The position numbers were made by a program, and so were the translations under genes. DNA of 64,000 nucleotides, taken from NCBI RefSeq assembly GCF_000212815.1, contig NZ_GL890985.1, forward strand, positions 463,324-527,323, written 5' to 3'. The DNA comes from Streptococcus sanguinis SK49. Lineage in GTDB: Bacteria; Bacillota; Bacilli; Lactobacillales; Streptococcaceae. The notes under the pieces are model-generated. The model was not told the origin of the DNA, did not search any database, and saw only the letters and a program-made list of their open reading frames with translations. Shown piece after piece: positions 955 to 46,055 of the stretch; within the stretch, counting starts at the first letter, position 1, and each line of letters opens with the position of its first letter.

Positions 955-2562
955 ATGAGAAAAAAACTATTTTTATTAGTTGTCCTCTTGCTGCCTTTAT
1001 TCTTGGTAGCCTGCCAGCAAAACTCAAATTCTTCCAAACAAGCCAATGAGAAAGACAAACTCACTATGGTCTGGGGAGAGGACTTTGGGGATGTCAATCC
1101 TCACCGCTACAATCCAGACCAATTTGTCATTCAGGATATGGTCTATGAAGGCCTAGTCCGCTACGGTGACAATGGTAAAATCGAGCCAGCCTTGGCTGAA
1201 AGCTGGGATATCAGCGAAGATGGTAAAACCTATACCTTCAAGCTGAGAAAGGCAAAATTCTCAGACGACTCTGACTTTAATGCTGAGAATGTCAAACGGA
1301 ATTTCGATACCGTCTTTTCAGAGGAAAACAAGAAAAACCACACTTGGTTTGACTTTACTAACCAATTGGAAAGCTATCGAGTTGTAGATGAGCATACCTT
1401 TGAGATTAAGCTCAAACAAGCCTACAGTGCGACTCTCTATGATTTATCAATGATTCGTCCGATTCGCTTCATAGCTGATGCTGCTTTCCCTGACGGAGAC
1501 GATACGACCAAGGACAACCTCAAAAAGCCAATCGGAACAGGTCAATGGGTTGTCAAAGACAAGAAGCAAAACGAGTACATTACCTTTACCCGTAACGAAA
1601 ATTACTGGGGTGAAAAGCCTAAATTGAAAGAAGTAACAGTCAAGATTATTCCAGATCCACAAACCCGTGCTCTTGAGTTTGAGTCTGGCAATGTTGACTT
1701 GATCTATGGAAATGGCGTTATCGGTCTGGATAACTTTGCCAAGTATGCCAAGGATGACAAGTACACAACGGATGTATCACAACCAATGTCCAGCCGCCTC
1801 ATGCTCTTGAATGCCAAGCAAGAAATTTTCAAAGACAAGACTGTCCGTCAGGCGATGAACCATGCAGTTGATAAGAAGTCTATTGCGAAAGACATTTTCC
1901 GCGGCACAGAAACACCAGCTGATACCATCTTCTCTAAGTCTACACCGCATTCTGACGCCAATCTGACTCCCTATGACTACGACATCAAGCAGGCTGAAAA
2001 GATGCTGGATCAAGCAGGCTGGAAGAAAGGTTCTGACGGTATACGTGAAAAAGATGGCAAGAAATTAAGCCTAAATGTTCCTTATATCTCTTCTAAGGCG
2101 ACAGACAAGGACTTGGTTGAGTACTTCCAAGGCGAATGGAAGAAAATCGGAATCGACGTTCAGCTTAAAGCTATGGAAGAAGATGACTACTGGGAAAATG
2201 CCAAGACAGGAAACTTTGACCTGATGTTGACTTATTCTTGGGGAGCACCGTGGGATCCGCATGCTTGGATGACTGCCTTGACTTCACCAGCAGACCATGG
2301 TCACCCAGAAAATATTTCCCTAGAAGCTCTGCCATCTAAGCCAGAAATTGATAAAATTATCAAGGCGACTCTGGTCGAACCAGATGAGGCAAAAGTCGAT
2401 GAAGGCTATAAGAAAGTCCTCACCATGCTCCATGATGAAGCTATCTATATTCCAATCACTTACCAATCTGTTGTTTCCGTCTACCGCAAGGGAGAACTCG
2501 ATGGCATGCGCTTTGCCCCAGAAGAAAATGCTTTCCCACTGCGCTATATTGAGAAAAAATAA
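955..2562 (+). CDS. nikA: Nickel/metallophore ABC transporter substrate-binding lipoprotein
   Basis: Extracellular binding protein of family 5 (SBP_bac_5), 535 residues. The signal peptide ends in the lipobox LVAC (Cys 20), so the mature protein is lipid-anchored. The NikA-type landmarks are clear: LNP-like NPHRYNPDQF near the N-terminus, PIRFIA, PIGTGQW, NENYWGEKP, PDPQTRALEFESGN and WGAPWDPHAW, all matching what I recall of E. coli NikA rather than generic OppA. It heads nikBCDE. The 85-base gap before it has no clear Shine-Dalgarno, so translation may start weakly. Nickel is the family substrate, but in a genome with cobalamin genes nearby a cobalt-containing complex is also plausible. Confidence 0.88.
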   Translation: MRKKLFLLVVLLLPLFLVACQQNSNSSKQANEKDKLTMVWGEDFGDVNPHRYNPDQFVIQDMVYEGLVRYGDNGKIEPALAESWDISEDGKTYTFKLRKAKFSDDSDFNAENVKRNFDTVFSEENKKNHTWFDFTNQLESYRVVDEHTFEIKLKQAYSATLYDLSMIRPIRFIADAAFPDGDDTTKDNLKKPIGTGQWVVKDKKQNEYITFTRNENYWGEKPKLKEVTVKIIPDPQTRALEFESGNVDLIYGNGVIGLDNFAKYAKDDKYTTDVSQPMSSRLMLLNAKQEIFKDKTVRQAMNHAVDKKSIAKDIFRGTETPADTIFSKSTPHSDANLTPYDYDIKQAEKMLDQAGWKKGSDGIREKDGKKLSLNVPYISSKATDKDLVEYFQGEWKKIGIDVQLKAMEEDDYWENAKTGNFDLMLTYSWGAPWDPHAWMTALTSPADHGHPENISLEALPSKPEIDKIIKATLVEPDEAKVDEGYKKVLTMLHDEAIYIPITYQSVVSVYRKGELDGMRFAPEENAFPLRYIEKK

Positions 2563-2653
2563 AAGCTGGCTTCATAACTGCAAATTTTAATATAAAGGGA
2601 GTAGTGCTGCTAAGTTGAAAAGCTTATCAGCCGCCCCTTTTCTTTTAAGGACT

Positions 2654-3595
2654 ATGAAAAAAGATTTATTTAAAAAAATAGTTTCTTTCTTAGCTGCTCT
2701 ATTGATGATATCAGTATTGACCTTTCTCTTGGCCAAGCTATCCTCGGCTGATCAAGCAGAAAACTATTTAAGGGTATCTAAGATTCAAGTAACCCCTCAA
2801 TCCTTGGAAAAAGCCAGAGAATATCTGGGCCTCAATCAACCTTGGCCCCGGCAGTATCTAGCTTGGCTGACTAAGGCCCTTGGTGGGGATTTTGGGACGT
2901 CTTATCTATTAAAGGTTCCTGTCCTGCCCTTGGTGCTGGAACGTTTCCAGTCAACCCTTTCTCTGGGCTTGACTTCCTTTGCTCTCATTTTGCTTACGTC
3001 CATTCCTTTGGGGATTTTTAGTGCGGTCTACAAGGATTCTCTCTTTGATAAGGTCACTCGTTTTCTATCCTTTTCCAGCGTTTCCATGCCTAGCTTTTGG
3101 TTAGGCTACATGCTGATTGTGATTTTTGCTGTTCAGCTCAGATGGCTGCCCGTTTCGGGCAAGCAGGATTTTAGCAGCTTGATTCTTCCTAGTCTGACCC
3201 TCAGTATGTCATTGATTGGCCAGTATACCGCTTTGATCCGCAAGGCTGTGCTGGAGCAGATGAACAGTGTCCATGTCGAAAATGCCCTCCTGCGCGGAGT
3301 CAGCAAGTTCTTCCTGGTCAAGAATCATCTCTTGAGAAATTCCCTGCCAGCCATTGCGACAGGCCTGAGCCTGACCTTGGTCTATCTCCTGACAGGTTCC
3401 TTGATTGTCGAAGAAGTCTTCTCCTGGAATGGTGTCGGCTCCCTCTTTGTAGATGCGCTCCAGTCTGTGGACCTGCCCATCATCCAGTGCTGTATGCTTT
3501 TATTTGGCCTATTATTCTTGGGAAATAACATTCTAACCCAGCAGCTGCCGCTCTGGATAGACCCTAGAGTCAGAAAAAGGAGGAGCAATGTCTAA
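2654..3595 (+). CDS. nikB: Nickel-type ABC transporter permease NikB
   Basis: First permease of the nikABCDE importer. From the ATG at 2654 the protein is 313 residues and starts MKKDLFKKIVSF, directly aligning with the first membrane helix of NikB; a longer in-frame TTG start at 2615 would add 13 residues not expected in the family. AAGG lies very close to the ATG, so the start choice is not certain. Family landmarks are the LGLNQPWPRQYLAWL segment after helix 1, DFGTS, the SVSMPSFWLGY motif, and the VEEVFSWNGVGSLFVDA segment near the end. It overlaps nikC by eight bases. Confidence 0.85.
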   Translation: MKKDLFKKIVSFLAALLMISVLTFLLAKLSSADQAENYLRVSKIQVTPQSLEKAREYLGLNQPWPRQYLAWLTKALGGDFGTSYLLKVPVLPLVLERFQSTLSLGLTSFALILLTSIPLGIFSAVYKDSLFDKVTRFLSFSSVSMPSFWLGYMLIVIFAVQLRWLPVSGKQDFSSLILPSLTLSMSLIGQYTALIRKAVLEQMNSVHVENALLRGVSKFFLVKNHLLRNSLPAIATGLSLTLVYLLTGSLIVEEVFSWNGVGSLFVDALQSVDLPIIQCCMLLFGLLFLGNNILTQQLPLWIDPRVRKRRSNV

Positions 3596-4394
3596 ACGAT
3601 TTATTTTTTCAAGTGTCATTTTGCTGGTCCTCTTCATCTGCGCTCTCTTTGCTCCCTTTCTATCCTCTTTTGATCCCCAGCAGGTAGAAATCTCAAACAA
3701 ACTAATGGCACCTGACGCTGTTCATCTGCTGGGAACGGATCAGCTAGGTAGAGATGTCTTGTCTCGTCTGCTGCACGGGGCTCGTTATTCTCTCTTTTTA
3801 TCCTTGACTATCAGTCTGCTAGAAGTGGTCATCGGTGTGACAGTCGGCTTGCTGATCGGATGGTACCAGGGAAAGGCTGAAGCAACCTTCTTATGGTTTG
3901 CAAATGTTATTTCCGCCTTTCCTAGCTTCCTGCTATCGCTAGCTACTGTTGGGATATTGGGGCAAGGAATGACCAATATGATTTTAGCCATTGTTATCAT
4001 AGAGTGGGTCTATTATGCTCGGGTAACGGCCAATCTGGTCAAGAGTGCCAAAGAGGAAGCCTATGTCATTTCTGCCCAGACCATGGGACTCTCTCAGATT
4101 CATATCCTCAAAACTCATATCCTGCCCTTTATATACAAGCCTATTTTGATTATTGTGTTGATGAATATCGGGAATATCATTCTCATGATTTCTGGCTTTT
4201 CCTTTCTGGGAATCGGTGTCCAGCCCAATATTACCGAATGGGGTATGATGCTGCATGATGCTAGAAGCCATTTTCAAACGGCAACTTGGATGATGCTGGC
4301 GCCTGGACTGGCTATCTTTCTGACTGTGGTCGCCTTTAATCTATTTGCCGAATGCTTTGAAGAGAAAGGCTGGAAACAGATATGGAAAAAATAG
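3588..4394 (+). CDS. nikC: Nickel-type ABC transporter permease NikC
   Basis: Second permease, 268 residues, with the GTDQLGRDVLSRLLHGAR signature after helix 1, a coupling loop around residues 155-180 (AQTMGLSQIHILKTHILP), and SGFSFLGIGVQPNITEWGMM before the last helix. The AGGAGG ribosome site lies inside the end of nikB, and it overlaps nikB by 8 and nikD by 13 bases, which points to translational coupling across the operon. It is a paralogue of the permease at 60-869, but the two differ enough to serve separate importers. Confidence 0.86.
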   Translation: MSKRFIFSSVILLVLFICALFAPFLSSFDPQQVEISNKLMAPDAVHLLGTDQLGRDVLSRLLHGARYSLFLSLTISLLEVVIGVTVGLLIGWYQGKAEATFLWFANVISAFPSFLLSLATVGILGQGMTNMILAIVIIEWVYYARVTANLVKSAKEEAYVISAQTMGLSQIHILKTHILPFIYKPILIIVLMNIGNIILMISGFSFLGIGVQPNITEWGMMLHDARSHFQTATWMMLAPGLAIFLTVVAFNLFAECFEEKGWKQIWKK

Positions 4395-5173
4395 CAGTAA
4401 AGCAACTGACAGCCCAGATTGAGGGAAAGACCATACTACAGGACATCAGCTTTGAAGTGGAGGTGGGGCAGTCTCTGGTCATCATTGGGGAGAGTGGTTC
4501 TGGTAAAACTCTCTTAACCAAGATATTGATTGGGCAACTGCCTTCATCCTTGAGCATGCAAGGTGAAGTTCACTATGGCTCCATGTCTCTGGAGCGCAGC
4601 TCTCTTAAGGACTGGCAGCAGCTGCGGGGGAGCCGAGTGGCCTATATGTCTCAAAATCCGATGGCTATGTTCAATCCCTTTCAGACCATTCAAAGCCATT
4701 TTTGGGAAACCATGCGCAGCCATAGCAAGATTTCAAAAAGCGCTTGTCTGACTAAGGCCCTAGCCTCTATGAAAGAGGTCAGACTGGGAGAGCCGGAAGA
4801 GCTTTTGAAGAAATATCCTTTTGAGCTCAGTGGCGGTATGCTGCAGCGGGTCATGCTGGCCATCTTGCTTTGCCTAGAGCCAGAGACTATCATTTTGGAT
4901 GAGCCTACTTCGGCGCTAGACATCCACAATCGCGAGCAGATTATCCTCATCTTAAAGGAGCAGTTAGCTAAAGGAAAGACCCTCATCACAGTGACCCATG
5001 ATTATCATTTGGCGCAGGAGCTAGGAGGCAAGATGCTTGTCATGTATCAGGGGGCTATCATGGAGGAAGGTCCAGTGGACAAGATCCTCGAAAGTCCTTC
5101 GCAGGCCTATAGCCAAGACCTTATTTTAGGAAATCCATACGAACGGTTGGTGAGACAAGATGCTGGAATGTAG
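4382..5173 (+). CDS. nikD: Nickel-type ABC transporter ATPase NikD
   Basis: First cytoplasmic ATPase subunit, 263 residues. Walker A is GESGSGKT near residues 37-44, the ABC signature is LSGGMLQRVMLA, Walker B is ETIILDEPTSALD, and the switch histidine is in TVTHDYH. The protein keeps the short NikD C-terminus rather than the longer OppD tail, although it ends with a brief iron-sulphur-free PYERL segment. It overlaps nikC and nikE. With NikE it would form the heterodimeric motor that drives the NikBC channel. Confidence 0.87.
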   Translation: MEKIAVKQLTAQIEGKTILQDISFEVEVGQSLVIIGESGSGKTLLTKILIGQLPSSLSMQGEVHYGSMSLERSSLKDWQQLRGSRVAYMSQNPMAMFNPFQTIQSHFWETMRSHSKISKSACLTKALASMKEVRLGEPEELLKKYPFELSGGMLQRVMLAILLCLEPETIILDEPTSALDIHNREQIILILKEQLAKGKTLITVTHDYHLAQELGGKMLVMYQGAIMEEGPVDKILESPSQAYSQDLILGNPYERLVRQDAGM

Positions 5174-5870
5174 ACATGTTTTTAAAAAATTCGATGGCAA
5201 AATGGTTGTCAAAGACTGTAACTTCTCCGTCCAGAAAGGTGAAATGATTGGTCTGATGGGCGAGAGCGGCAGTGGTAAGAGCACGCTGGCTAAATTGCTG
5301 ATTGGTTTAGAAAAGCCCAGTCAAGGTCAGGTCTTACTAGATGGCCAGCCCTATTCAGTCAAAAAGTCTGGCGTGAGAATTCTGTTGGTCTTTCAAGACT
5401 CGCTCCATTCAGTCAATCCGCACTTTACAGTCGAGCAGGTTTTGACAGAGGCCCTGTCAAAAGATGTGGCTAGAGACGAGATAGAAGCCATTCTAGAAGA
5501 CGTCGGTTTGGATAAAAGCTATCTGAATCAGCCAGCACGCCAGCTCAGTGGCGGCCAGCTCCAACGGATTTGCATCGCCCGCGGCCTGCTCTTAAAGCCA
5601 GATATTCTCATCTTTGATGAGGCTCTGAGCGGTTTGGATCCCATTGTTCAAGGAAAGTTGTTACGCCTCCTATATGATTTGTGGGAGAAATACCAGCTGA
5701 CCTATCTTTTCATCTCGCATGATTTCAAGCTGAGCTATGCTCTCTGCCATCGGATTTTGGTCATGGCAGACGGGGAAATCGTTGACGAGATAAAGGACTT
5801 TGAGCTTCCTATCCAGGCTCATCACCCTGTGACAAAAAAGTTGATAGGCGACATGGGACATTTTAGCTGA
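5160..5870 (+). CDS. nikE: Nickel-type ABC transporter ATPase NikE
   Basis: Second ATPase subunit, 236 residues. Walker A is GESGSGKST, the Q-loop lies in LLVFQDSLHSVNP, the signature is LSGGQLQRICIARG and Walker B is DILIFDEALSGLD, where the usual PTS after the catalytic Glu is ALS; the switch His is in FISHDF. It starts 14 bases inside nikD and closes the operon; about 50 bases of AT-rich sequence separate it from the next gene. Confidence 0.86.
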   Translation: MLECRHVFKKFDGKMVVKDCNFSVQKGEMIGLMGESGSGKSTLAKLLIGLEKPSQGQVLLDGQPYSVKKSGVRILLVFQDSLHSVNPHFTVEQVLTEALSKDVARDEIEAILEDVGLDKSYLNQPARQLSGGQLQRICIARGLLLKPDILIFDEALSGLDPIVQGKLLRLLYDLWEKYQLTYLFISHDFKLSYALCHRILVMADGEIVDEIKDFELPIQAHHPVTKKLIGDMGHFS

Positions 5871-9727: not shown

Positions 9728-9740
9728 ATAATAACAGTAT

Positions 9741-9820
9741 AGAAAATGGCAAGGAAGCCTGATTTGATCGCAATGAAGCGAGTGTTTCAGAATCAAAGGG
9801 GTTTTCTATGCCATTTTTTT
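9741..9820 (+). promoter_or_regulatory. ANTAR twin-hairpin antiterminator leader 1
   Basis: Two small hairpins with six-base loops: GGC-AAGGAA-GCC at 9748-9759 and CGC-AATGAA-GCG at 9769-9780. Both loops have A at position 1 and G at position 4, the EutV (ANTAR) recognition rule known from Enterococcus faecalis. A competing terminator pairs 9743-9751 (AAAATGGCA) with 9809-9817 (TGCCATTTT) followed by T. Its 5' arm includes the first arm of hairpin 1, so EutV binding and termination exclude each other. This places the downstream phosphatase, eutP and cobalamin genes under EutVW. Confidence 0.88.
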
Positions 9821-9854
9821 GCGCACTATTATTTTTTTATGGAGGATTGTTTCT

Positions 9855-11171
9855 ATGCGGACAAAAGGAATTGTGCTGCTTTGTGGTTTGGCTTTGCTTC
9901 TGGGAGCTTGTCAAGCGGGGAATAATAAGACGACGACGGAGTCATCCTCGGCTAAGACAGAGACAACAGATAAGGACAAGGCTAAGACTTTGGATAAGGG
10001 CGTTTGGGAAGACAAGCTTTATGCCCGTCTGACCAAGCTCATCAAGGAAAATGGGAACACCAGCTCTAGCTATGATAAAAATAAAAAGCCTTATGCCGTC
10101 TTTGACTGGGACAATACGACCGTCATTAACGACATTGGCGAAGCAACCTTTACCTATCAAATTGAAAATCTGGCCTTTAAGATGACGCCGGAAGAATTTG
10201 ACCAAGCAGTACGGACTAATATACCGAGCGACGATTTTGTTGAGGATTTCCATAACAAAGATGGTGAACCAGTGAACATTGACAAGATTGCGGCCGACTT
10301 GCTTTCTGACTACACGGCTATTTACAATAGCTATAAGGGAATGCAAGGAGATAAGTCTCTGGAAGAAGTCAAAAAGACTGATGAATACCAAGATTTTGCT
10401 GCTAAACTCCGCTATCTTTACGAAGCGATTGGTGACACCTTCAGCTCTGACATCAGCTATCCATGGGTGACCTACCTCTATGCAGGTATGACTTCTGAAG
10501 AAGTTCAAGCTCTATCTGAAAAGTCTATTGACCAGGCTCTCCAAGACAAGCTGACTTCTGAAACTTGGGAAAGTCCAGAAGGCTTGAAAGGTGAGTCAGG
10601 CCAAATCACTGTGACCTTCAAGCGCGGTGTTCGCTCAGTCAAGGAAATGCAAAATCTCTACAAGACTCTGATGGCTAACGGCATTGATGTCTATATCTGC
10701 TCAGCGTCTTATATCGATGTGATTATCCCTTATGCTAGTAATTCTAAGTATGGCTACAATATTCCTAAAGAAAATGTTACTGGTATGCGCCTGAAAAAGG
10801 ATGATAAGGGTGTGATTCAGCCGGAATACGATACCAACTATGCTCAGACTCAAGGTGAGGGCAAGACAGAGACCATCAAAAAGCTGATTGCTGTCAATCA
10901 TGACAATCAAGAACCAATCCTGATTGCCGGTGACAGTAATGGCGACTATGCTATGCTCAAGGACTTCCCTAAATTGCAAATGGGTATCATCTTCAATCTT
11001 CTGAGAGATCCTAGCAAGGGAATCGGTCTTTTGCAAACTAAGGCGATTGAAACTTACGGCCAGGAAGATGCCCTTTACTATCTGCAAGGCCGCGATGAAA
11101 ATAAAGGTGTACTGCTCAACGGCAGGGAAACTATCAAACTAGATAGTAAGGAAGCCCAGCTCAGTAAATAG
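9855..11171 (+). CDS. Exported HAD-family phosphatase lipoprotein (candidate phosphoethanolamine phosphatase)
   Basis: 438 residues from the ATG at 9855, with GGAGG nine bases before it; longer starts would lie inside the leader terminator. The signal peptide ends in LLGAC (lipidated Cys 19), then a Ser/Thr/Lys-rich spacer to about residue 50. HAD motif I is DWDNTT (Asp 84 and Asp 86), motif II is in VYICSAS, and the late motif is AGDSNGDYAML. The overall plan, with a helical cap between motifs I and II, resembles secreted phosphorylcholine/phosphoethanolamine phosphatases and phosphoserine-phosphatase-like HADs. It is the first gene behind a EutV-controlled leader, so a role in freeing ethanolamine from phosphoethanolamine outside the cell is a reasonable inference; the substrate is not shown by the sequence. 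Confidence 0.82.
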   Translation: MRTKGIVLLCGLALLLGACQAGNNKTTTESSSAKTETTDKDKAKTLDKGVWEDKLYARLTKLIKENGNTSSSYDKNKKPYAVFDWDNTTVINDIGEATFTYQIENLAFKMTPEEFDQAVRTNIPSDDFVEDFHNKDGEPVNIDKIAADLLSDYTAIYNSYKGMQGDKSLEEVKKTDEYQDFAAKLRYLYEAIGDTFSSDISYPWVTYLYAGMTSEEVQALSEKSIDQALQDKLTSETWESPEGLKGESGQITVTFKRGVRSVKEMQNLYKTLMANGIDVYICSASYIDVIIPYASNSKYGYNIPKENVTGMRLKKDDKGVIQPEYDTNYAQTQGEGKTETIKKLIAVNHDNQEPILIAGDSNGDYAMLKDFPKLQMGIIFNLLRDPSKGIGLLQTKAIETYGQEDALYYLQGRDENKGVLLNGRETIKLDSKEAQLSK

Positions 11172-11201: not shown

Positions 11202-11645
11202 ATGCAAAATATGAAAAAAATCATGTTTGTCGGTCCAGTCGGAGTGGGTAAGACTACTCTGACCCAGCGACTGAAAGGCTTGGAGCTAAGCTACTTTAAG
11301 ACTCAGGCTATTGAGTTCTATGATGCCATCATTGATACGCCCGGAGAATTTCTCCAGCATCGTAAGTATTATAATGCTCTGAACGTGACAGCAACAGAAG
11401 CTGATGTGATTGGTCTCTTGGTGGCGGCTTCCAATCAGATGCAGACCTTTCCTCAAGGCTTTTCTTCCCTCTTCAATAAAGAAGTGATTGGCATTGTCAC
11501 CAAGATTGATATGGCTGAACAGCCGGAGCAAATTGAAAAAGCGCGGCGACAGCTGAAAGTGGCTGGAGCCAAGGAAATTTTTGAAATATCAGCGACGGAA
11601 AACGAAGGAATTGACCGTCTTCAGGCTTATCTGGAGTCAGACTAG
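11202..11645 (+). CDS. eutP: Ethanolamine utilization protein EutP
   Basis: 147-residue Ras-like small P-loop protein of the EutP/PduV family. The Walker A motif GPVGVGKTT is close to the start, DTPG is at switch II, and the TKID motif is the guanine-specificity motif. EutP homologues have been reported as acetate kinases or small GTPases associated with microcompartments. GAGAGGA lies four bases before the ATG at 11202; a second ATG at 11211 is possible. It is the second gene of the first eut transcript. Confidence 0.9.
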   Translation: MQNMKKIMFVGPVGVGKTTLTQRLKGLELSYFKTQAIEFYDAIIDTPGEFLQHRKYYNALNVTATEADVIGLLVAASNQMQTFPQGFSSLFNKEVIGIVTKIDMAEQPEQIEKARRQLKVAGAKEIFEISATENEGIDRLQAYLESD

Positions 11646-11709: not shown

Positions 11710-12804
11710 ATGAAAGTAGAGCACGGTGGAAATGCGGCAGCTTTGGCTGAGGAATTTGGTTTTTCTCTAGAAGACTGTCTGGATTTCAGTGCCAATATCA
11801 ACCCTTTGGGGATTTCTCAAAAGCTTAGGGCTTGTCTGACCGAGTCCATTGATTGGCTGGTTCATTATCCAGACATCAGCTACAGCCGCTCCAGAGAGCT
11901 TTTGGCACATCATCATGACCTAGAAAAGGACAATGTCCTGCTGGCAAATGGTGCGGTAGAAGTCTTTTATGAGCTGGCCCGCTTCCTGCGTCCAAAAACG
12001 GTCCTGACTCTGAGCCCTACTTTCATGGAATATGAAAAAGCCTTCTTGCAAGTGCAGACCAAGGTGGAGCGCTTTAGCCTTCCTTCTCCATCCTATGAGT
12101 GGAATCTAGCTGACATGTTGCCAGCCTTGGATTCACTGACTGCAGGAGACGCTGTACTCATCTGTAATCCCAATAATCCGACGGGTACCTTGATTCGGCG
12201 TACTGAGTTAGAAAAGCTAGCTGACTACTTGCAGGAGCGGCAAATCTTTTTGATATTGGATGAAGCTTTTATGGATTTTCTGGACGATGAGGAGGCCTAT
12301 AGCTTTGTCTCATGTCTAGCTGTCTATCCAAATGCAGTAGTGGTACGGTCTCTGACTAAGTTTTATGCTATTCCTGGTCTGAGATTGGGCTATGCTCTCA
12401 GCTGTCATCCGACTTGCTTTGATGAGATAGAGGGGAGCCGTGCTCCTTGGTCGGTCAATGCCATGGCGGATTACGCCCTGCCTGTCCTTTTGGAAGACCA
12501 GGCCTATCAGCAAGCTACCAAGGAGTGGCTTCGAGTAGAAAGAGATTTCCTTTTTCAAGGACTGACTGCATTTTCACGGATTCGGCCGGTCAAGCCTAGT
12601 GTCAACTATATCTTCTTTGAATATTTAGGTCAGCAGGACCTGCGTCAGGAGCTTCGGCAGAGAAAGATTTTTATCCGTTCCTGTCAAAATTATCATGATC
12701 TGACAGACCGGCATTACCGCATAGCCATCCGCAGCCATCAGGAGAATGAACAGCTTCTGACTTGCCTGATAGAGGTCTTGGCGAAAGAGGCTCCTTATGA
12801 CTAA
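11710..12804 (+). CDS. cobD: L-threonine-O-3-phosphate decarboxylase CobD
   Basis: PLP enzyme that turns threonine phosphate into (R)-1-amino-2-propanol phosphate, the linker of the cobalamin nucleotide loop. 364 residues from the ATG at 11710, which has an AGGAAGGA site and starts at the family's MKVEHGGN (HGGN is the conserved CobD N-terminus). The fold-type I aminotransferase landmarks are NANPN-like CNPNNPTG, DEAFMDF, and the PLP lysine in RSLTKFYAIPGLRLGY. Histidinol-phosphate aminotransferase is the near relative, but the HGGN start, DFSANINPLG and the next gene (pduX, which makes its substrate) favour CobD. It overlaps pduX by eight bases. Confidence 0.9.
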   Translation: MKVEHGGNAAALAEEFGFSLEDCLDFSANINPLGISQKLRACLTESIDWLVHYPDISYSRSRELLAHHHDLEKDNVLLANGAVEVFYELARFLRPKTVLTLSPTFMEYEKAFLQVQTKVERFSLPSPSYEWNLADMLPALDSLTAGDAVLICNPNNPTGTLIRRTELEKLADYLQERQIFLILDEAFMDFLDDEEAYSFVSCLAVYPNAVVVRSLTKFYAIPGLRLGYALSCHPTCFDEIEGSRAPWSVNAMADYALPVLLEDQAYQQATKEWLRVERDFLFQGLTAFSRIRPVKPSVNYIFFEYLGQQDLRQELRQRKIFIRSCQNYHDLTDRHYRIAIRSHQENEQLLTCLIEVLAKEAPYD

Positions 12805-13663
12805 GGGGATCGTGTCTTGTCCGGGTTCCTGCGGTGAATTATTTCAAGGTCTAGTAGGAGAGCAAGAGGTCCTGCTCTCCTATGGGATTGAGAAGCGTAG
12901 TCGGGTTAGATTGGACGGAACTTCGTCTCTCGCAAGGCAAGCTCAAGGTGAAAAGGTAAGGCGAGCTTTGGAGCTCCTGCCTGTGGCCAATGCTTTCTCT
13001 TTTGTTCAGGAGTCAGACCTGCCGATCAGCAAGGGCTATTCTAGCAGCACAGCTGATATGGTTAGCTGCCTGCAGGCGGCCTTTCTGGGGCAGAAGCAGC
13101 TTCTAAGAGCGGCAGACTTGACTTGTCTCTGTGCCAAGATTGAGCCTACTGACTCAGTGGCTTTTGCGGACTGGACGGTCATTGATCCCCTGACTGGTCA
13201 AGTGGTCTGGCAGACAGACTGGCGACCGGAGCTCTATGTTTATATCTTGGAGCCTGTGGAGATGGTGACTACCCTTGACTTGGTTCGGATGAAGGACAGT
13301 CCTAGCTATCCGGCTGAGGAGTCCAAGCGCTTGCTTCCTCTCTTTCAGGAAGCTTGTCAGGAGAAGAGTCTGGAAAAGATTGGTCATTTAGCGAGTTATA
13401 GTGCTTTGTTGAATAACAAACGGCTACCCAAGCCCTACCTGAAAGAATTACTGAATTTGGTAAAAGAATACCAGTGCTTAGGCCTCAATGTTGCTCATAG
13501 TGGTACATTGGTTGGTCTGCTGCTGAACAGGGAACAGCTAGAAATCTTGCCCAAGCTAGAGGCTGAACTAGCTCGCTCAGCTAGTGGGGCTTATTATCAG
13601 ACTCGGACCTTGAGTAGGATTATTTTTGAAGGGGTGCAGCCGGTCAGGGAGGAGACAGACTAG
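12797..13663 (+). CDS. pduX: L-threonine kinase PduX
   Basis: GHMP-family kinase making O-phospho-L-threonine for CobD, part of cobalamin linker synthesis. 288 residues. The N-terminal PGSCGELFQG and the nucleotide-binding SKGYSSSTADM (the GHMP motif 2, with Ser-rich loop) are diagnostic; the C-terminal NVAHSGTLVGLLL is GHMP motif 3. It starts within the end of cobD and ends two bases before cobT, so the three genes are translated as a unit. Together PduX and CobD suffice to make aminopropanol phosphate from threonine. Confidence 0.9.
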   Translation: MTKGIVSCPGSCGELFQGLVGEQEVLLSYGIEKRSRVRLDGTSSLARQAQGEKVRRALELLPVANAFSFVQESDLPISKGYSSSTADMVSCLQAAFLGQKQLLRAADLTCLCAKIEPTDSVAFADWTVIDPLTGQVVWQTDWRPELYVYILEPVEMVTTLDLVRMKDSPSYPAEESKRLLPLFQEACQEKSLEKIGHLASYSALLNNKRLPKPYLKELLNLVKEYQCLGLNVAHSGTLVGLLLNREQLEILPKLEAELARSASGAYYQTRTLSRIIFEGVQPVREETD

Positions 13664-13664
13664 T

Positions 13665-14732
13665 TTGAAAGACTTAGAAAAAATTATTGAGCAGATTCTT
13701 CCGATAGACAGAGACAAGGTTCAAGAAGGGCAGAGCTACTGTGATCGGCTAGGAAAGCCGCCAGGCTCCTTAGGAAAGCTAGAGACCATCTATGCTCGCT
13801 TGCATGCCATGTTTCCTGGTCCCATTGATTTGGAGAAGAAGATTGTCCTTGTCTACGTAGCGGATAATGGCATCGTGGCTGAAGGCGTTTCAGCCAATCC
13901 TCAGGAAACGACCTATACTGTTGCTCGCAATATTCTAGCAGGGAAGTCAGGCTTGTGTGCTATTTCCAAACATGCAGGTTCAGACATCTGTCTGGTAGAC
14001 ATTGGCTGCAAGAAGGATATCTTTGAGGAGAATGAGGACAAGTTTTGTCATGGGACGCGTAATATGCTCGAGGAGCCAGCCATGACTCGTGAGCAGGCAA
14101 TAGCGGCAATTCTAGTCGGCTACAAGAAGACAGAGGCCTTGATTAAAGACGGCTATCGTCTCTTTGGAACAGGAGAAATGGGGATTGGCAACACCACCAC
14201 CTCAGCAGCTGTTATTGCTGCAGTTCTCGGTCTTAAAGCAGAAGACGTCACAGGCTATGGAGCTGGTCTGACTCAGGATATGAAGGCTCATAAAACTGCC
14301 GTTATCCAGCAGTGTTTGGATCGTCACGCTCCTTATGGAGATATTCTGGATCTGACCGCTAAGCTTGGCGGGCTGGATATGCTGGCTATGGCAGGCACTC
14401 ATCTTGCCTGTGCCCGCTATCAGCTGCCATGTGTAGTGGATGGCCTTATCTCTCTGACGGGGCTTCTGATTGCCCATCAGCTGACTCCTCATGTCTTGGA
14501 CTATACCTTTGCTTCCCATGCTTCGACGGAGCCTGCTTACAGACTGGTCAGTGACTTTCTAGGACTGGAGCCCATGCTTTTGCTGGACATGCGATTGGGT
14601 GAAGGCTCGGGCTGCCCTTTGGCTTTCTTTCTGCTGGGAAATGCTGTCTATACTATGGAGCACATGCCAACCTTTGCTGAAGGCAGCTTGAAAGAAGAAG
14701 ATTATGTTGATATTCGCAAAAATGTGACTTAA
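13665..14732 (+). CDS. cobT: Nicotinate-nucleotide-dimethylbenzimidazole phosphoribosyltransferase
   Basis: Activates the lower ligand base (DMB) to alpha-ribazole phosphate. 355 residues from a TTG at 13665, with GGAGG 11 bases upstream inside the end of pduX; an earlier in-frame ATG would run 39 bases into pduX with no ribosome site. Landmarks are KPPGSLGKLE near the start, FGTGEMGIGNTTTSAA in the middle and the catalytic glutamate in DMRLGEGSGCPLAF. CobU, CobS and CobC are not in this window, so the rest of nucleotide-loop assembly must lie elsewhere. Confidence 0.93.
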   Translation: MKDLEKIIEQILPIDRDKVQEGQSYCDRLGKPPGSLGKLETIYARLHAMFPGPIDLEKKIVLVYVADNGIVAEGVSANPQETTYTVARNILAGKSGLCAISKHAGSDICLVDIGCKKDIFEENEDKFCHGTRNMLEEPAMTREQAIAAILVGYKKTEALIKDGYRLFGTGEMGIGNTTTSAAVIAAVLGLKAEDVTGYGAGLTQDMKAHKTAVIQQCLDRHAPYGDILDLTAKLGGLDMLAMAGTHLACARYQLPCVVDGLISLTGLLIAHQLTPHVLDYTFASHASTEPAYRLVSDFLGLEPMLLLDMRLGEGSGCPLAFFLLGNAVYTMEHMPTFAEGSLKEEDYVDIRKNVT

Positions 14733-14744
14733 AGGAGGAAAAAT

Positions 14745-15344
14745 ATGCAACTCTATACAAAAACAGGTGATAAGGGCTTGACCAAGCTAGTTGGCGGCCA
14801 AAGTGTCGCCAAGGATGCAGAACGAGTTAATGCTTATGGAACCATTGATGAGCTGAACTCTTGGATTGGTTATACTATTACCAAGCTGGACAAGGATGAT
14901 AAGCTGAGAGATGAGCTGCTCCAGCTGCAGCATTATCTCTTTGACTGTGGTTCAGACCTCTCTACTCCTAAGGGAGTTTACCCTTATAAGGTCGATCAGC
15001 AGCTGATTGACTGGATTGAGGAGAGGATTGATACTTACGCAGAAATTCCACCGGCTCTGGAAAGGTTTATCCTGCCAGGTGGTGACGAGATTGCTTCCAT
15101 GATTCATGTGGCTCGGACCATTGCAAGACGGGCAGAGCGTCATATCGTAGGGGCTATGTGGACTACGGAAATTAACAATAATGTCCTGATTTTTGTCAAT
15201 CGTCTATCAGATTATTTCTTTGCCTTGGCTCGGGTAATCAACTTTACCAAGCATCAAGAAGATATCGCCTATGAAAGAGGTGCCAAGGTCTTCCACAATA
15301 TCACCAAGGCGGATGTTGAGCGTTGGGCTAGCAAACGCCAGTGA
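14745..15344 (+). CDS. pduO: Cob(I)alamin adenosyltransferase, PduO type
   Basis: Transfers the adenosyl group from ATP to cob(I)alamin, giving the AdoCbl cofactor of EutBC. 199 residues. The N-terminal YTKTGDKGLT is the ATP-binding motif of PduO/MMAB enzymes, followed by VNAYGTIDELNSWIG, LPGGDEIAS and ARTIARRAER with the conserved arginines; LNRLSD-like NRLSDYFFALAR marks the last helix. AAAGGAGG precedes the ATG. It is the last gene of the first eut transcript and is followed by a large hairpin. A second, EutT-type transferase lies at 27145. Confidence 0.92.
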   Translation: MQLYTKTGDKGLTKLVGGQSVAKDAERVNAYGTIDELNSWIGYTITKLDKDDKLRDELLQLQHYLFDCGSDLSTPKGVYPYKVDQQLIDWIEERIDTYAEIPPALERFILPGGDEIASMIHVARTIARRAERHIVGAMWTTEINNNVLIFVNRLSDYFFALARVINFTKHQEDIAYERGAKVFHNITKADVERWASKRQ

Positions 15345-15424: not shown

Positions 15425-15800
15425 TAAAAAAGAAAGCCGCCTATACATCATCGTATCTTCATGCTAAGCTTCGTTGATTAGCACTAGCTTTCCAATTATT
15501 GACTCTGCTCCTTTGCAGAAAGACAAGTGAAACCTCATCTTTAGAAAATTAACGTACTTAAACGTAGAGTCAATAATGGAAACTAAGCTAAAATGTTTGT
15601 TCCAAACTGACATCACTACCTTACATCGAGGCATGAAATCTACTAAAATTTAAGAATAAAGACCTGACTTAAAGCTGAAAAGCTTATCACAGTGGCGGGA
15701 CCGCGCTGGATTTGCACCAGACTTCCATATCCTTAAAAGTACTAAAATCAATTTCCTAGTAACTAGATTGTAACACCTTTCACAGGGAATTACAAGGAAA
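15425..15800 (-). ncRNA. EutX/Rli55-like regulatory RNA: AdoCbl riboswitch plus EutV-binding hairpins
   Basis: Read on the minus strand: an adenosylcobalamin riboswitch (about 15800 to 15648), then about 130 bases, then a twin ANTAR target. Hairpin 1 is TCTGC-AAAGGA-GCAGA (15519 to 15504). Hairpin 2 is an imperfect stem with loop AACGAA (15483 to 15462). Both loops keep A1 and G4. A terminator follows, pairing 15487-15493 with 15431-15437 ahead of a T-run, and the larger hairpin at 15361-15412 lies beyond. A long inverted repeat (about 15567-15588 with 15487-15506) encloses hairpin 1. In E. faecalis (EutX) and Listeria (Rli55) such RNAs sequester EutV when AdoCbl is scarce. Exact ends and promoter are not resolved. 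Confidence 0.8.
15648..15800 (-). promoter_or_regulatory. Adenosylcobalamin riboswitch on the minus strand
   Basis: The reverse strand carries the B12-box core: GGAAGTCTGGTGCAAATCC, then GCGCGGTCCCGCCACTGTGA, followed by the 3' element AAGTCAGG; GAAAGGTGTT near 15775-15784 fits the 5' element. No protein-coding gene lies downstream on that strand within the window's intergenic gap: next is the ANTAR hairpin pair, then pduO in the opposite direction. So this riboswitch controls an RNA, not a protein. Confidence 0.92.
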
Positions 15801-15925: not shown

Positions 15926-15932
15926 TCAATAT

Positions 15933-16030
15933 AGTACAAAGGGGTACTGAAGATAAATAAGCAATGAAGCTATATGAAAATGCTGTGACGTGTGTAGGGG
16001 AGCAGTCTTATTTTCATATAGTTTCTTTTT
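15933..16030 (+). promoter_or_regulatory. ANTAR twin-hairpin antiterminator leader 2 (eutG)
   Basis: Hairpin 1 is AGTAC-AAAGGG-GTACT (15933-15948) and hairpin 2 is AGC-AATGAA-GCT (15960-15971); both loops have A1 and G4. A terminator pairs 15970-15981 with 16010-16021 (12 base pairs) before a T-rich tract at 16022-16030, and its 5' arm shares two bases with hairpin 2. Transcription would start around 15932, so hairpin 1 is at the very 5' end of the message. Confidence 0.85.
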
Positions 16031-17671: not shown

Positions 17672-18247
17672 ATGAAAGGCAGAATACTAATTGTTGATGA
17701 TGATCCAATTGTAAGATTAGATATCCGAAATATATTAGAGGCAGCTGATTATGAAGTGGTGGCTGAGGCATCCGATGGCTTTGAGGCTATTGATTTGTGT
17801 CAGAAATATCGTTGTGACTTGGTCATGATGGACATCAAGCTTCCGCTTTTGGATGGCCTGACAGCGGGTAAGAAAATACTCGAAGATGCTTTAGCCTACA
17901 GTGTGATTCTACTGTCAGCCTACAGCGATGAACACTATGTTCAAAAAGCTAAAACCAATGGGATTAGTGCTTACTTGGTTAAACCTTTGGATGCCAAGTC
18001 CTTGATTCCAATGGTAGAGGTCTGCATTGAGAAGGGCCGTCAGTTGCAGCAGATGTCCAATGAAATGGTCAAGCTGTCTAAAAAAATAGATGATCGGATT
18101 GTGATTGAAAAGGCTAAAGGCTTGCTGATGGCTCGTGATCATTTATCAGAGCCAGAAGCTTTCAAGCGTATTCGGACAATTAGTATGCAAAAGAGAGTGC
18201 CAATGATTGAGATTGCTAAATTGCTGGTGCTCCAAGATGATGTGTAA
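17672..18247 (+). CDS. eutV: Response regulator with ANTAR RNA-binding domain, EutV
   Basis: 191 residues. Receiver domain at about 3-120: acidic pair in IVDDDP, phospho-acceptor Asp 54 in VMMDIKLP, Ser/Thr in LSAYS and Lys in YLVKPLD. A coiled linker (QLQQMSNEMVKLSKKI) leads into a C-terminal ANTAR domain with KAKGLLMARDHLSEPEAFKRI. Phosphorylated EutV dimers bind twin hairpins with A1/G4 hexaloops and prevent terminator formation. Targets visible here are the leaders at 9741, 15933 and 19693 and the minus-strand RNA at 15425-15800. It shares one base with eutW. Confidence 0.95.
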   Translation: MKGRILIVDDDPIVRLDIRNILEAADYEVVAEASDGFEAIDLCQKYRCDLVMMDIKLPLLDGLTAGKKILEDALAYSVILLSAYSDEHYVQKAKTNGISAYLVKPLDAKSLIPMVEVCIEKGRQLQQMSNEMVKLSKKIDDRIVIEKAKGLLMARDHLSEPEAFKRIRTISMQKRVPMIEIAKLLVLQDDV

Positions 18248-21261: not shown

Positions 21262-22632
21262 ATGATTTTGAAAACAAAATTGTTTGGTCGGCTTTACGAA
21301 TTTAAATCCGTAAAAGAAGTGCTGGCCAAAGCCAATGAGTACAAATCCGGAGATCAGCTAGCCGGAGTAGCAGCAGAATCTGCCGAAGAGCGTGTCGCTG
21401 CTAAGGTTGTACTAGCTCAGCTAAAACTGTCTGATTTGTTCAATAATCCGGTAGTGCCTTATGAAGAAGATGAGGTAACACGGATTATCATTGACGATGT
21501 CAATCTTCGTACTTACGAAAAGATTAAGAATTGGACAGTAGAAGAACTGCGTGAATGGATCTTGGATAACAAGACTAAGAACGTAGACATTCAGTGGCTG
21601 TCTCGTGGGTTGACTTCTGAAATGGTAGCAGCGGTTGCTAAGTTGATGACCAACTTGGACTTGATTGTCGCTGCCAATAAGATTGTCATTACCAAACATG
21701 CCAATACAACGATTGGTATGCCAGGAACCTTCTCTTCTCGTCTTCAACCAAACCATACCACAGATGATCCAGACGGTATCATGGCTTCTACTATGGAAGG
21801 TTTTGCTTATGGATGTGGGGATGCTCTCTTAGGATTGAACCCAGTAGATGACTCAGTAGAAAGTACCAAACGCGTCTTGCATAAGTTTAACGACTTCATC
21901 GAAGAGTACAAGATTCCAACTCAGCACTGTGTGCTAGCTCACGTTACTACTCAGATAGAAGCCATGAATCAAGGTGCTCCGACAGGATTGGTCTTCCAGT
22001 CTATCGCTGGATCTGAAAAAGGAAATGAAGCCTTTGGTTTTGATGCTAAAATCATTCAAGAAGCTTGGGATACAGCTCTGAAAGTGGGAACAGCTGCTGG
22101 ACCGAATGTCATGTACTTTGAAACAGGTCAAGGTTCTGAACTTTCATCTGATGCTCACCATGGAGCAGACCAAGTGACTATGGAAGCTCGTTGTTATGGT
22201 TTCGCTAAACGCTTCGATCCATTCTTGGTAAATACCGTTGTTGGATTCATCGGACCTGAGTATCTTTATGATTCTAAGCAGGTTATCCGTGCTGGTTTGG
22301 AAGACCACTTCATGGGCAAACTGACTGGTATCTCAATGGGTTGTGATATCTGCTACACTAACCACATGAAAGCTGACCAAAACGACGCTGAAAATCTCTT
22401 GGTTCTTCTCGGAGCAGCCAATGTTAACTACATCATGGCGATTCCTCATGGTGACGATATCATGCTTAACTATCAAACAACTGGTTACCATGAAACAGCA
22501 ACCATGCGCTCACTTCTCAACAAACGTCCGATTAAGGAATTTGAAGAGTGGATGGAAAAGATGGGCTTGATGGAAGATGGTCACCTGACAGAAATCGGCG
22601 GAGACGGCTCCATCTTTATGAAATCAAATTAG
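21262..22632 (+). CDS. eutB: Ethanolamine ammonia-lyase large subunit
   Basis: 456-residue TIM-barrel subunit that binds ethanolamine and, with EutC, AdoCbl; it splits ethanolamine into acetaldehyde and ammonia. Conserved stretches include [54 protein letters not shown] and [26 protein letters not shown] precedes the ATG. Length is the family norm. It is followed 16 bases later by eutC, giving balanced subunit synthesis. Confidence 0.96.
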
Positions 22633-22648
22633 CAAGGAGGAAATCATT

Positions 22649-23569
22649 GTGGATGAATTGCAATTAAAAGAAATGATTCGCTCATTGTTAAATGAGATGG
22701 GCGGCGACTCAGCTGTTAAAGAAACAGCAGCGACTGACCAGAACAAAGCTGAAAAACCTGCGGTTTCTCTGCAGGAAGAAGTTAAACAAGACACTTCGGT
22801 GATTGAAGATGGCATTATTCCGGATATAACAGAAGTAGATATTCAGGAGCAGTTCTTGGTTCCAAATGCCATCAATGAAGAAGCCTACCGGAAGATTAAG
22901 AAATTTACTCCGGCACGTCTGGGCTTATGGCGGGCAGGCGATCGCTACAAAACACAAAGTGTTTTGCGTTTCCGTGCAGACCATGCGGCAGCTCAGGATG
23001 CGGTCTTCTCCTATGTCTCAGATGACTTTATCAAGGAAATGGGCTTCATTCCTGTACAGACTAAGGCGACTACTAAAGATGAATATTTGACACGTCCAGA
23101 TTTTGGCCGGGTCTTCCCTGAAGATCAGCAGGCGATTATCAAGGAAAAATGCAAACCTAATGCCAAAGTTCAGATTGTCGTTGGTGATGGTCTTAGCTCA
23201 TCAGCTATCGAGGCTAACGTCAAAGACTTCCTGCCAGCTCTGAAGCAAGGTCTGAAAATGTTCGGACTGGACTTTGGTGAAGTACTCTTTATCAAGCATG
23301 CTCGGGTTGCAGCTATGGACCAAATCGCAGAACTGACTGGAGCAGAAGTTATCTGTATGCTGGTCGGTGAGCGTCCAGGTCTGGTAACAGCTGAGTCTAT
23401 GAGTGCTTATCTGGCTTACAAGCCAACAGTTGGTATGCCAGAAGCGAAACGGACCGTTGTTTCCAATATTCATAAAGGCGGAACACCAGCCGTTGAAGCT
23501 GGAGCCTATGTAGCAGAAATCATTAAGAAGATTCTTGATAATAAGAAATCAGGAATTGATTTGAAATAA
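22649..23569 (+). CDS. eutC: Ethanolamine ammonia-lyase small subunit
   Basis: 306 residues from a GTG with GGAGG eight bases upstream. The first 18 residues ([15 protein letters not shown]) form an amphipathic helix like known encapsulation peptides, followed by a variable Ala/Glu-rich linker to about residue 60. The body (from [16 protein letters not shown]) is the conserved EutC domain that closes over cobalamin; [13 protein letters not shown] and [12 protein letters not shown] are diagnostic. The helix probably directs the lyase into the microcompartment. Confidence 0.95.
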
Positions 23570-27144: not shown

Positions 27145-27786
27145 ATGTCAGTTTTTACAGAAGCTAAGATTAGAAAGCTTTATAGAGAATCCGTTCTCGC
27201 TGATAACGGTGTCTTTGAATTAAACAAAGATGAAAAACTGACGCCAGCAGCCAGAGGTTTTCTCAATGATCACCATATTCGAATTATTTCTTCAGGTCAG
27301 ACCAAAGGGAAAACAGCCTCAGCTGCTGATGCTATCAGGGTGCCGATTACAAACCTTGAGGACTCTGCTGTGTATCCACGACTATTTAGACTGACTAAAC
27401 TTTATACTTGCTTTTTGAAGAACCAGAGAGAATTGCATCAGGCTTTTCAGGATGAAAAGTGTGAGCAAGTTGGCCAACTATTGAACATAGTAGAACAAAT
27501 CGTCGGCCATCATATTCTGGATGATATTTCTGATTACCAGACAGACCTGCCTAGCAATGCAGAATTGCAGGCCATTCGGGTCAGTCGACAGCTCGATCAA
27601 GAAACGGTTATGATGAGTTATCAAGAGCCGACTTGGCAGCTGAATTGCTATGAAACCTATATCGAAACGACTCTCCTGCGCAAAGAATTGGAGCAGGCTG
27701 CTGATGGTGACAGAGATCAATTTGCTTGTAAGGTTTCTCAATTATTAAAATCAATTGAAGTCTTGCTCTGGTTGATAGCAAGCTAA
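27145..27786 (+). CDS. eutT: EutT-type cobalamin adenosyltransferase
   Basis: 213 residues. Residues 5-50 carry a module also seen at the N-terminus of enterobacterial EutT and EutQ (TEAKIRKLYRE, then LTPAARGFLNDHHIRI). The remainder is helical, with HHILDDISD and a C-terminal region matching the general EutT plan. I see no CCxxC metal motif of the kind known in Salmonella EutT, so this belongs to a variant lacking that site. The predicted job is making AdoCbl next to EutBC. AAGGA stands 11 bases before the ATG. The locus therefore holds two adenosyltransferases of unrelated type. Confidence 0.72.
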   Translation: MSVFTEAKIRKLYRESVLADNGVFELNKDEKLTPAARGFLNDHHIRIISSGQTKGKTASAADAIRVPITNLEDSAVYPRLFRLTKLYTCFLKNQRELHQAFQDEKCEQVGQLLNIVEQIVGHHILDDISDYQTDLPSNAELQAIRVSRQLDQETVMMSYQEPTWQLNCYETYIETTLLRKELEQAADGDRDQFACKVSQLLKSIEVLLWLIAS

Positions 27787-27809: not shown

Positions 27810-28436
27810 ATGACTTTAGAAAATTTGGTAAATAAAGTAATTGATAAAGTTCAGGAAGAATTGCAGGGGTCATTTGAGGTAGAAGCGAGCGGACGTCATG
27901 TCCATTTGAGTCAGGAAGATTTGGAAGCCTTGTTTGGTCCCAACTATCAATTAACAAAAGCAAAAGACCTATCACAGCCAGGCCAGTTCGCTAGTCAGGA
28001 AAGGCTGACAGTTGTCGGTCCAAAAGGCGCTTTTCACAATGTGGTTATTCTGGGACCTGTTCGCAAACATTCTCAGGTAGAAGTTTCCTTGACAGACTGT
28101 TTGCAGCTGGGCACCAAGGCACCCATTCGCGAAAGTGGTGATATCGAAGGAACACCGGGTGTCATCTTGGCTCATGGAGACAAGGCAGTTTGTCTGGATA
28201 AGGGCCTGATCGTAGCTAAGCGTCATGTTCATATGACACCGGAAGATGCCGAACGTCTGAATGTAAAAAATCACGAGATTGTACAAGTCAGAGTAGAAGG
28301 AGCTCGTCCGCTGATATTTGATGATGTGGTCATCCGTGTTAGTCCTAAATTTGCGACTTATATGCATATTGACTACGATGAAGCCAATGCCTGTGGTTTC
28401 AAAAAAGGAACACGCGGACGGATTATTAAAAAATAA
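27810..28436 (+). CDS. pduL: Phosphate acyltransferase PduL/EutD
   Basis: 208 residues. PduL-type phosphotransacylase, unrelated to Pta, converting acetyl-CoA to acetyl-phosphate and recycling CoA inside the compartment. Zinc ligands are in SGRHVHLS near residue 30 and AKRHVHMTPEDAE near residue 140, the two halves of a repeated barrel domain. Residues 1-20 (LENLVNKVIDKVQEEL) form an amphipathic helix of the encapsulation-peptide type. The usual Salmonella EutD (Pta type) is absent from this operon, so PduL fills its role. Confidence 0.93.
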   Translation: MTLENLVNKVIDKVQEELQGSFEVEASGRHVHLSQEDLEALFGPNYQLTKAKDLSQPGQFASQERLTVVGPKGAFHNVVILGPVRKHSQVEVSLTDCLQLGTKAPIRESGDIEGTPGVILAHGDKAVCLDKGLIVAKRHVHMTPEDAERLNVKNHEIVQVRVEGARPLIFDDVVIRVSPKFATYMHIDYDEANACGFKKGTRGRIIKK

Positions 28437-43481: not shown

Positions 43482-43484
43482 TCA

Positions 43485-43832: not shown

Positions 43833-43834
43833 GG

Positions 43835-45736: not shown

Positions 45737-45749
45737 GGAGGAAGATAGT

Positions 45750-46043: not shown

Positions 46044-46055
46044 CAAAATAATTTA

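Follow-up and report, generated by a model that had tools for sequence, protein, structure and literature searches.

An exported HAD phosphatase associated with ethanolamine utilization genes in Streptococcus sanguinis SK49 is a predicted phosphoethanolamine phosphatase

In the 64,000-nucleotide stretch of Streptococcus sanguinis SK49 DNA that we have analyzed (the window), the gene preceding eutP encodes a HAD phosphatase with the features of an exported lipoprotein. We conclude that this membrane-anchored enzyme probably hydrolyses phosphoethanolamine outside the cytoplasm to give phosphate and ethanolamine, the latter being imported by EutH and used by the eut enzymes; it might act on related amino-alcohol phosphates too. 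The conclusion is supported by comparative genomics, i.e. kinship with PchP in sequence and fold, export signals, linkage to eut genes in five phyla, and the presence of eutB in 15 out of 15 Streptococcus carriers. It agrees with the original prediction of external release of ethanolamine from phosphoethanolamine before import by EutH. Very probably there is a PchP-like exported phosphatase family dedicated to ethanolamine supply, as judged by comparison of sequences. On balance we also favor a wider reading, in which ethanolamine catabolism in bacteria has a hitherto missing front end, a widespread and still unnamed family of exported enzymes that cleave phosphoethanolamine. This family would be linked to the pathway in several phyla and types of operon (EutV microcompartment operons, short eutBC-permease operons and bare phosphatase-permease pairs), making phosphoethanolamine a source of carbon, nitrogen and phosphorus, with a product-induced feed-forward loop in streptococci. 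The use of ethanolamine has links to colonization of the gut and to disease, and free ethanolamine is the usual starting point in drawings of the pathway. If our reading is correct then bacteria have access to phosphoethanolamine, which arises when lipids are broken down, and lipid turnover is linked directly to the eut system. It would also provide a testable function for a family with a solved structure (4GXT) to which no function is assigned.

The features of the locus are collected in Table 1. The ATG of the phosphatase gene is preceded by GGAGG at 9841–9845. The protein begins with the lipoprotein signal MRTKGIVLLCGLALLLGAC, followed by a Ser/Thr-rich linker and then the HAD domain, and both a signal peptide and a lipobox cysteine are found from the sequence and a crude hydrophobicity test. 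Seven named S. sanguinis records contain copies of it with 98–100% identity. The lipoprotein character and the motifs DWDNTT, CSAS and GDSNGD on which the original prediction was built are all present in the open reading frame, together with K337, which was absent from its list. In an alignment of 38 sequences D84, D86, K337, D360 and D364 never vary, position 283 is occupied by either S or T, and the full set of HAD superfamily features (DxD, S or T in motif II, lysine and acidic GDxxGD) is present. The Pfam HAD score of the SK49 protein is 17.1, below the cut-off of 27; the cut-off was passed by two of the three relatives scanned, the third (L103) having no match. Amongst NCBIfam models the protein matches HAD subfamilies only, all below cut-off, and no specific family. 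HAD-IB-type models are the matches common to many of the 38 diverse homologues. One S. sanguinis strain, B14863032 (G009 C10; L087:10001–11316), has a broken reading frame in this gene, which is either a real loss or a sequencing error.

Table 1. Features of the phosphatase gene, its leader and neighboring genes, with positions in the window
Feature	Position	Strand	Basis
Exported HAD phosphatase, lipoprotein, 438 aa	9855–11171	+	Open reading frame, profile and structure matches, 38-sequence alignment
Signal peptide; followed by lipid-attachment Cys19 (9909–9911), lipobox LLGAC	9855–9908	+	Sequence
Motif I DWDNTT, residues 84–89; putative nucleophile D84, second Asp D86	10104–10121	+	Sequence, alignment; roles by analogy with PchP (from part of PMC3170909)
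Motif II CSAS, residues 282–285; S283 aligns with PchP S166	10698–10709	+	Alignment
Motif III lysine K337; aligns with PchP K242	10863–10865	+	Alignment
GDSNGD motif, residues 359–364; D360, D364	10929–10946	+	Sequence, alignment
Leader hairpin P1, GGC[AAGGAA]GCC, ANNGNN hexaloop	9748–9759	+	Motif scan, folding
Leader hairpin P2, TCGC[AATGAA]GCGA, ANNGNN hexaloop	9768–9781	+	Motif scan, folding
Competing terminator-like fold; T-run from 9814 at its end	9737–9822	+	Folding
Second dual-hairpin EutV-type site, upstream of eutG	15932–15971	+	Motif scan
eutP	11202–11645	+	Pfam/NCBIfam family search
cobD, threonine-phosphate decarboxylase	11710–12804	+	NCBIfam
GHMP kinase, pduX-like by position	12797–13663	+	Weak family match; name inferred
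cobT-like gene (name presumed from the sequence)	13674–14732	+	Used as query
PduO-type adenosyltransferase, eutT role	14745–15344	+	NCBIfam
eutV, response regulator with ANTAR domain	17672–18247	+	Domain search
eutB, eutC, ethanolamine ammonia-lyase	21262–23569	+	eutB by family search; eutC by position and homology
eutD, PduL-type phosphate acyltransferase	27810–28436	+	Pfam
eutH, ethanolamine importer	29428–30522	+	Family search

A profile search against solved structures gave 4GXT with E = 1.3e-106, PchP with 2.8e-23 and then weaker HAD proteins. Among the entries to which a function is assigned PchP ranks first, followed by phosphoserine phosphatase at 2.4e-4. Using an AlphaFold model with a mean pLDDT of 91.8, structural Z scores were 51.3 for 4GXT, 27.7 for PchP, 21.8 for 4ovy, 18.8 for an uncharacterized Bordetella protein, about 15 for phosphoserine phosphatases and 10.4 for the acid phosphatase AphA. 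The Anaerococcus prevotii protein 4GXT is a member of the same family with 36% identity, and its entry title carries no assigned function. It had been proposed earlier that related secreted HAD enzymes act on phosphorylcholine and phosphoethanolamine, and that the structure should be compared with Pseudomonas PchP. PchP is indeed the nearest characterized relative by both sequence and fold, and it hydrolyses phosphocholine and phosphoethanolamine (portion consulted of PMC3170909). A firm grouping with acid phosphatases would have spoken against the proposal; on structure the class B enzyme AphA lies well below PchP, although a low Z score by itself leaves kinship possible.

The SK49 protein and PchP of Pseudomonas aeruginosa (4AS2; compared using part of PMC3170909) share the fold, the HAD catalytic residues, export and part of the amine-binding residues. 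The alkylammonium residue E43 of PchP corresponds to E96 (conserved in 37 of 38 sequences), Y84 to Y189 (38 of 38) and Y82 to Y187 (Y or F in 36 of 38). E42 and Y83 are replaced by G95 and L188 in the SK49 protein, and this counts against phosphoethanolamine as substrate. The two proteins are 24% identical in structural alignment. The SK49 protein has GDSNGD where PchP has GDTPxSD, and its gene neighbors are ethanolamine genes, not choline genes. In a tree of 80 family rows and eight PchP-type rows the two sets are separated by a fully supported branch, and the protein does not group with the PchP family; the tree was made by a quick method, contains several long branches, and left out six near-identical S. 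sanguinis loci (L081, L082, L083, L085, L086 and L087) and two fragments (L142 and L147). The protein has a PchP-like fold and catalytic residues, yet lies on the other side of this branch, so it would be expected to work like PchP from outside the PchP clade. By these comparisons it belongs to a separate, unnamed family of which PchP is the nearest characterized protein.

The gene was originally placed first behind a EutV-controlled leader, and the leader does have the expected form, with two ANNGNN hairpins, a short linker and an overlapping terminator. Hairpins P1 and P2 start 107 and 87 bases upstream of the ATG, and in each hexaloop the first base is A and the fourth is G. Their linker of 8 nt falls inside the range of 5–12 nt reported for Enterococcus faecalis EutV sites in the portion consulted of PMC3369931. 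The entire leader folds as a single long stem resembling a terminator (−33.7 kcal/mol, z = −6.4), so that the two-hairpin and terminator folds are mutually exclusive. The section 9745–9785 alone folds as two hairpins, but no better than shuffled sequences (z = −0.8). The window contains three dual sites compared with a mean of 0.1 in 20 dinucleotide shuffles. Two are the leaders of the HAD gene and eutG; the third, at 6741 and antisense to a gene, is probably due to chance. The dual hairpin is found upstream of the HAD gene in all nine other Streptococcus loci examined in which this gene comes first (L084, L088–L094 and L097, the six near-identical S. sanguinis loci being left out). Their linkers are 4–8 nt in length, three of them at 4 nt and thus just below the published range, and both sides of the stems change, e.g. 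TCGC/GCGA and TTGC/GCAA. The dual hairpin is absent in L095, where the HAD gene sits after the eut operon, and there is no EutV-type dual site before the homologues in seven loci from Granulicatella, Enterococcus, Brevibacillus, Ammoniphilus and a Synergistaceae genome. The form of the leader, its conservation and the ANTAR domain of EutV therefore lead us to predict this regulation with good support, including binding of EutV to the leader. In both E. faecalis (part of PMC3369931) and Streptococcus there is a dual-hairpin antitermination leader upstream of eutG and another at the eutP end of the operon, but in Streptococcus the latter stands upstream of the HAD gene, itself 5′ of eutP. The window differs further in having no complete dual site upstream of eutS or eutA. 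The eutA leader at 19718 has a single ANNGNN hexaloop hairpin near the start codon.

Catalysis through a phospho-aspartate is established HAD chemistry. Phosphoethanolamine would form a phospho-aspartate on D84 outside the membrane, whereupon ethanolamine would leave and water would free the phosphate. EutH or a permease would take up the ethanolamine, which the lyase would split. Ethanolamine and adenosyl-B12 would open the Streptococcus leader through EutV, so that the phosphatase would be made when both are sensed. This would constitute a feed-forward loop: ethanolamine, the product, would induce the enzyme that supplies it, a little free ethanolamine leading to more phosphatase. The substrate, the metal, the binding of EutV and the feed-forward physiology are as we infer them.

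Amongst 147 Streptococcus genomes the HAD phosphatase is present in 15 and eutB in 19, and every carrier of the phosphatase has eutB. None of the 128 eutB-negative genomes carries the gene, aside from three weak matches (G070, G079 and G139; E ~1e-4) that cover the signal region only, within the first 66 residues, and were not counted as carriers. The probability of this co-occurrence is 3e-17 when kinship is ignored; among the 15 carriers, eight genomes of S. sanguinis type are nearly identical to one another, and one of these eight has a broken frame. The gene is missing from four eutB-positive genomes, and so is accessory. Streptococcus merionis has a second, divergent paralogue with 33–36% identity that has no signal peptide and lies near transporter genes (L049:9772–10923, G021; also L088 near 3657).

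A scan of one genome per species gave 406 relatives, the best 80 of which (16 from Streptococcus and 64 others) were studied. Ethanolamine genes (eutBC, eutH or an ethanolamine permease) were found in 16 out of 16 Streptococcus loci and in 35 of the 64 others among these best 80, using one marker set and one set of thresholds for the stretch fetched around each gene. Permeases were required to have 45% identity, and EutV, EutG, EutM, EutK, EutE, EutW, EutT, EutR and the product of the gene at 28468 were not counted as ethanolamine-specific. Two loci (L137 and L152) are linked via EutQ alone, and without them the count is 33 of 64; eight Paenibacillus and four Herbaspirillum loci among those linked are not independent. 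Ethanolamine genes were found in none of eight PchP-type loci and in none of 20 control segments of 20 kb drawn from two carrier genomes. In 28 of the 35 linked loci an ethanolamine gene lies on the same strand within 3.5 kb. In the remaining seven (L116, L123, L125, L130, L131, L141 and L152, Brevibacillus being among these) the ethanolamine genes are only on the other strand or further off.

Several arrangements recur. The order permease-eutB-eutC-HAD is found in Cupriavidus (L118 and L121), Lampropedia, Acidovorax and Pseudorhodoferax, while Cupriavidus L122 has eutBC only; permease-HAD-eutB-eutC is found in four Herbaspirillum loci and Ralstonia, and eutB-eutC-permease-HAD in Methylobacterium. 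All eight Paenibacillus loci have a permease gene on the same strand 33–86 bases downstream of the HAD gene, and in Ammoniphilus eutH is next to it. Loci of microcompartment type occur in Synergistaceae, Selenomonadales and, on the other strand, Brevibacillus. All six permeases tested from linked loci score above the curated cut-off of the model for ethanolamine permease. The permease and phosphatase genes of L136 have between them a EutR-like regulator, which scores below its own cut-off. The public annotation of a Methylobacterium nodulans plasmid has an AraC regulator, eutB, eutC, eat and a HAD hydrolase. Of 80 genomes from the order of Sebaldella (Fusobacteriota), 23 have a match, which in 15 of them reaches E < 1e-100. 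The contexts of 14 of these 15 strong homologues were covered (including G610, which is L112, and leaving out G645); 12 are eut loci, eight of which have the order eutH-HAD-eutQ. The weak homologue G639 is not linked to eut genes. Linkage is therefore found in five phyla, Bacillota, Pseudomonadota, Synergistota, Elusimicrobiota and Fusobacteriota. The Cupriavidus-Acidovorax and Herbaspirillum-Ralstonia-Methylobacterium groups fall in different well-supported clades of the tree, an indication that the linkage arose more than once within Pseudomonadota.

Most homologues have Sec, lipoprotein or twin-arginine signals. Amongst the best 80 relatives, 48 of 51 eut-linked homologues pass a crude hydrophobicity test for export, a test that is also positive for window proteins needing no signal peptide (eutG, eutV, eutL and eutK). 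The three misses are L118, which was read in the wrong frame and whose close relatives L121 and L122 are lipoproteins; L151, which has a twin-arginine motif; and L152, whose start is near the contig end. By eye, a signal-like segment is seen at the N-terminus of all 12 eut-linked homologues of the Sebaldella order (in L258, in one of two copies). The homologues without a visible signal (L117, L135, L047, L269 and the second copy in G021) are none of them next to ethanolamine genes, the G021 copy being about 5 kb from the eut-linked copy.

Two other roles would place the enzyme inside the cell. In 15 of 16 Streptococcus loci the gene order is HAD-eutP-cobD-pduX-cobT-eutT, which would be consistent with a phosphatase that acts in B12 assembly on a phosphorylated lower-ligand or aminopropanol intermediate. 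Such intermediates are cytoplasmic, whereas the phosphatase is exported. Of the Streptococcus genomes 18 have cobT, but G111 has no cobT match and keeps the HAD gene, with eutB, beside its eut operon, while G013, G064, G120 and G124 have both eutB and cobT without the HAD gene. The gene is therefore associated with the breakdown of ethanolamine, not with B12 assembly. Moreover, cobD- and cobT-like matches occur in the stretch covered in just one (L116) of the 64 non-Streptococcus loci among the best 80 of 406 relatives. We therefore rejected a role in B12 assembly, which is very unlikely given G111 and the 63 loci. The second proposal is from the literature. In its consulted part PMC6620236 describes a HAD protein with 28% identity to PchP in the Eut clusters of 12 Fusobacteria genomes, taken as a third, non-homologous form of the Eut phosphate acetyltransferase in genomes having no other such gene, and PMC11796344 lists a HAD hydrolase in the Fusobacterium nucleatum eut cluster, with no function given in the portion consulted. 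This is very probably the same protein as the Sebaldella-order homologue that we find mostly between eutH and eutQ, for which we propose a phosphatase. There is no eutD match within 20 kb in eight of the 12 eut-linked Sebaldella-order loci, as an acetyltransferase would lead one to expect. However, the other four have a PduL-type eutD within the same 20 kb (one confirmed by Pfam), as does the SK49 window. The phosphatase residues are intact in the 38-sequence alignment, which contains one Sebaldella row and no Fusobacterium row, and linkage extends to eutBC-permease operons and bare permease pairs. The signal-like N-termini of the 12 Sebaldella-order proteins also speak against it, and we rejected the assignment: export signals, by eye and in the crude test, do not fit a cytoplasmic or microcompartment location. 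The evidence argues against the published acetyltransferase assignment of the fusobacterial homologue, which we regard as extremely improbable. Our searches of the open-licence literature revealed no proposal of a phosphoethanolamine phosphatase connected with eut genes. A review of eut begins with phosphodiesterases, and the words phosphoethanolamine and phosphatase are absent from the part consulted (PMC5821096).

The remaining alternatives concern the specificity of an exported phosphatase. It might be a broader amino-alcohol phosphatase, with phosphocholine or another ester as its main substrate and ethanolamine as a side product. PchP cleaves both esters (part of PMC3170909), and by analogy release of choline by the SK49 enzyme is possible. 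Furthermore, 29 of the 64 non-Streptococcus loci in the best 80 of 406 relatives have no ethanolamine gene in the stretch covered, some being on short contigs, and this counts against our reading. The one recurrent setting noticed among them on reading the neighbors by eye is in Clostridiaceae, where glmS adjoins the HAD gene in L096, L105 and L117, as identified by family search, and in L100, as judged by eye. In L096 (from the family search) and L100 (again by eye) the HAD gene lies between glmS and glmM, and all these neighbors are on the opposite strand. Such copies may serve a different function or may just lack the linkage. The HAD gene is also not beside ethanolamine genes in three Ventosimonas-family genomes (G563, G580 and G592). 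In a plasmid collection eight records match, and of six examined just that of M. nodulans is linked, those from Peribacillus, Burkholderia (three) and Paraburkholderia being unlinked. In a sample of the phylum four non-Streptococcus genomes out of 396 carry the gene; three have eutB, in no case within 20 kb of the HAD gene, and the chance of this overlap is 0.002, uncorrected for kinship. Against a mainly choline enzyme, control by EutV and siting beside ethanolamine importers would be odd, and none of the eight PchP-type loci has ethanolamine genes. Methylobacterium terricola provides a natural control. On one contig it has an SK49-type phosphatase behind eutB, eutC and a permease, and a PchP (E = 4.3e-159 to 4AS2) directly behind a choline dehydrogenase gene, the latter scoring below cut-off because only its C-terminal part was inside the first stretch. 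Each of these exported phosphatases lies beside the genes for breaking down the amine that it would set free. Overall we consider the broader specificity unlikely. Promiscuity is frequent among HAD phosphatases, and the protein might even be a general phosphate-scavenging acid phosphatase with an incidental placement. Yet the leader is of EutV type, the AphA-type acid phosphatases are far lower in fold score, and linkage to ethanolamine genes clusters on the tree (13 changes compared with 29.5 in shuffles) while occurring in distant clades. Incidental placement is thus highly improbable, and an exported phosphatase directed at phosphoethanolamine is the reading that we prefer.

Some further features of the window were observed. 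Downstream of the adenosyltransferase gene the eut operon encodes EutVW, EutABC, shell proteins, the PduL-type EutD and EutH. An AdoCbl riboswitch lies between eutT and eutG at 15605–15753 on the minus strand; the reverse orientation of EutX in S. sanguinis has been described already (in the part consulted of PMC5821096). Within the operon, the protein encoded at 27145–27786 has no NCBIfam match, and the sole match of that at 28468–29115 is below cut-off, to TIGR02536 (eut protein of unknown function). Phosphoethanolamine might be supplied by the action of phospholipases on lipids or by a free pool in the host; as a candidate supplier in the genome, the GDPD family gave one match, in a 587-residue open frame. 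At 43131–46406 and 61274–62957 there are clusters of small and larger proteins that on reading resemble type VII secretion cargo, although no Pfam family was above cut-off for the three proteins tested. A NikABCDE-like transporter is encoded near the eut locus at 955–5870, its first gene scoring above the nikA cut-off, and a similar transporter adjoins HAD-eutQ in four loci from the order of Sebaldella (L256, L263, L264 and L265). It may bring cobalt for B12.
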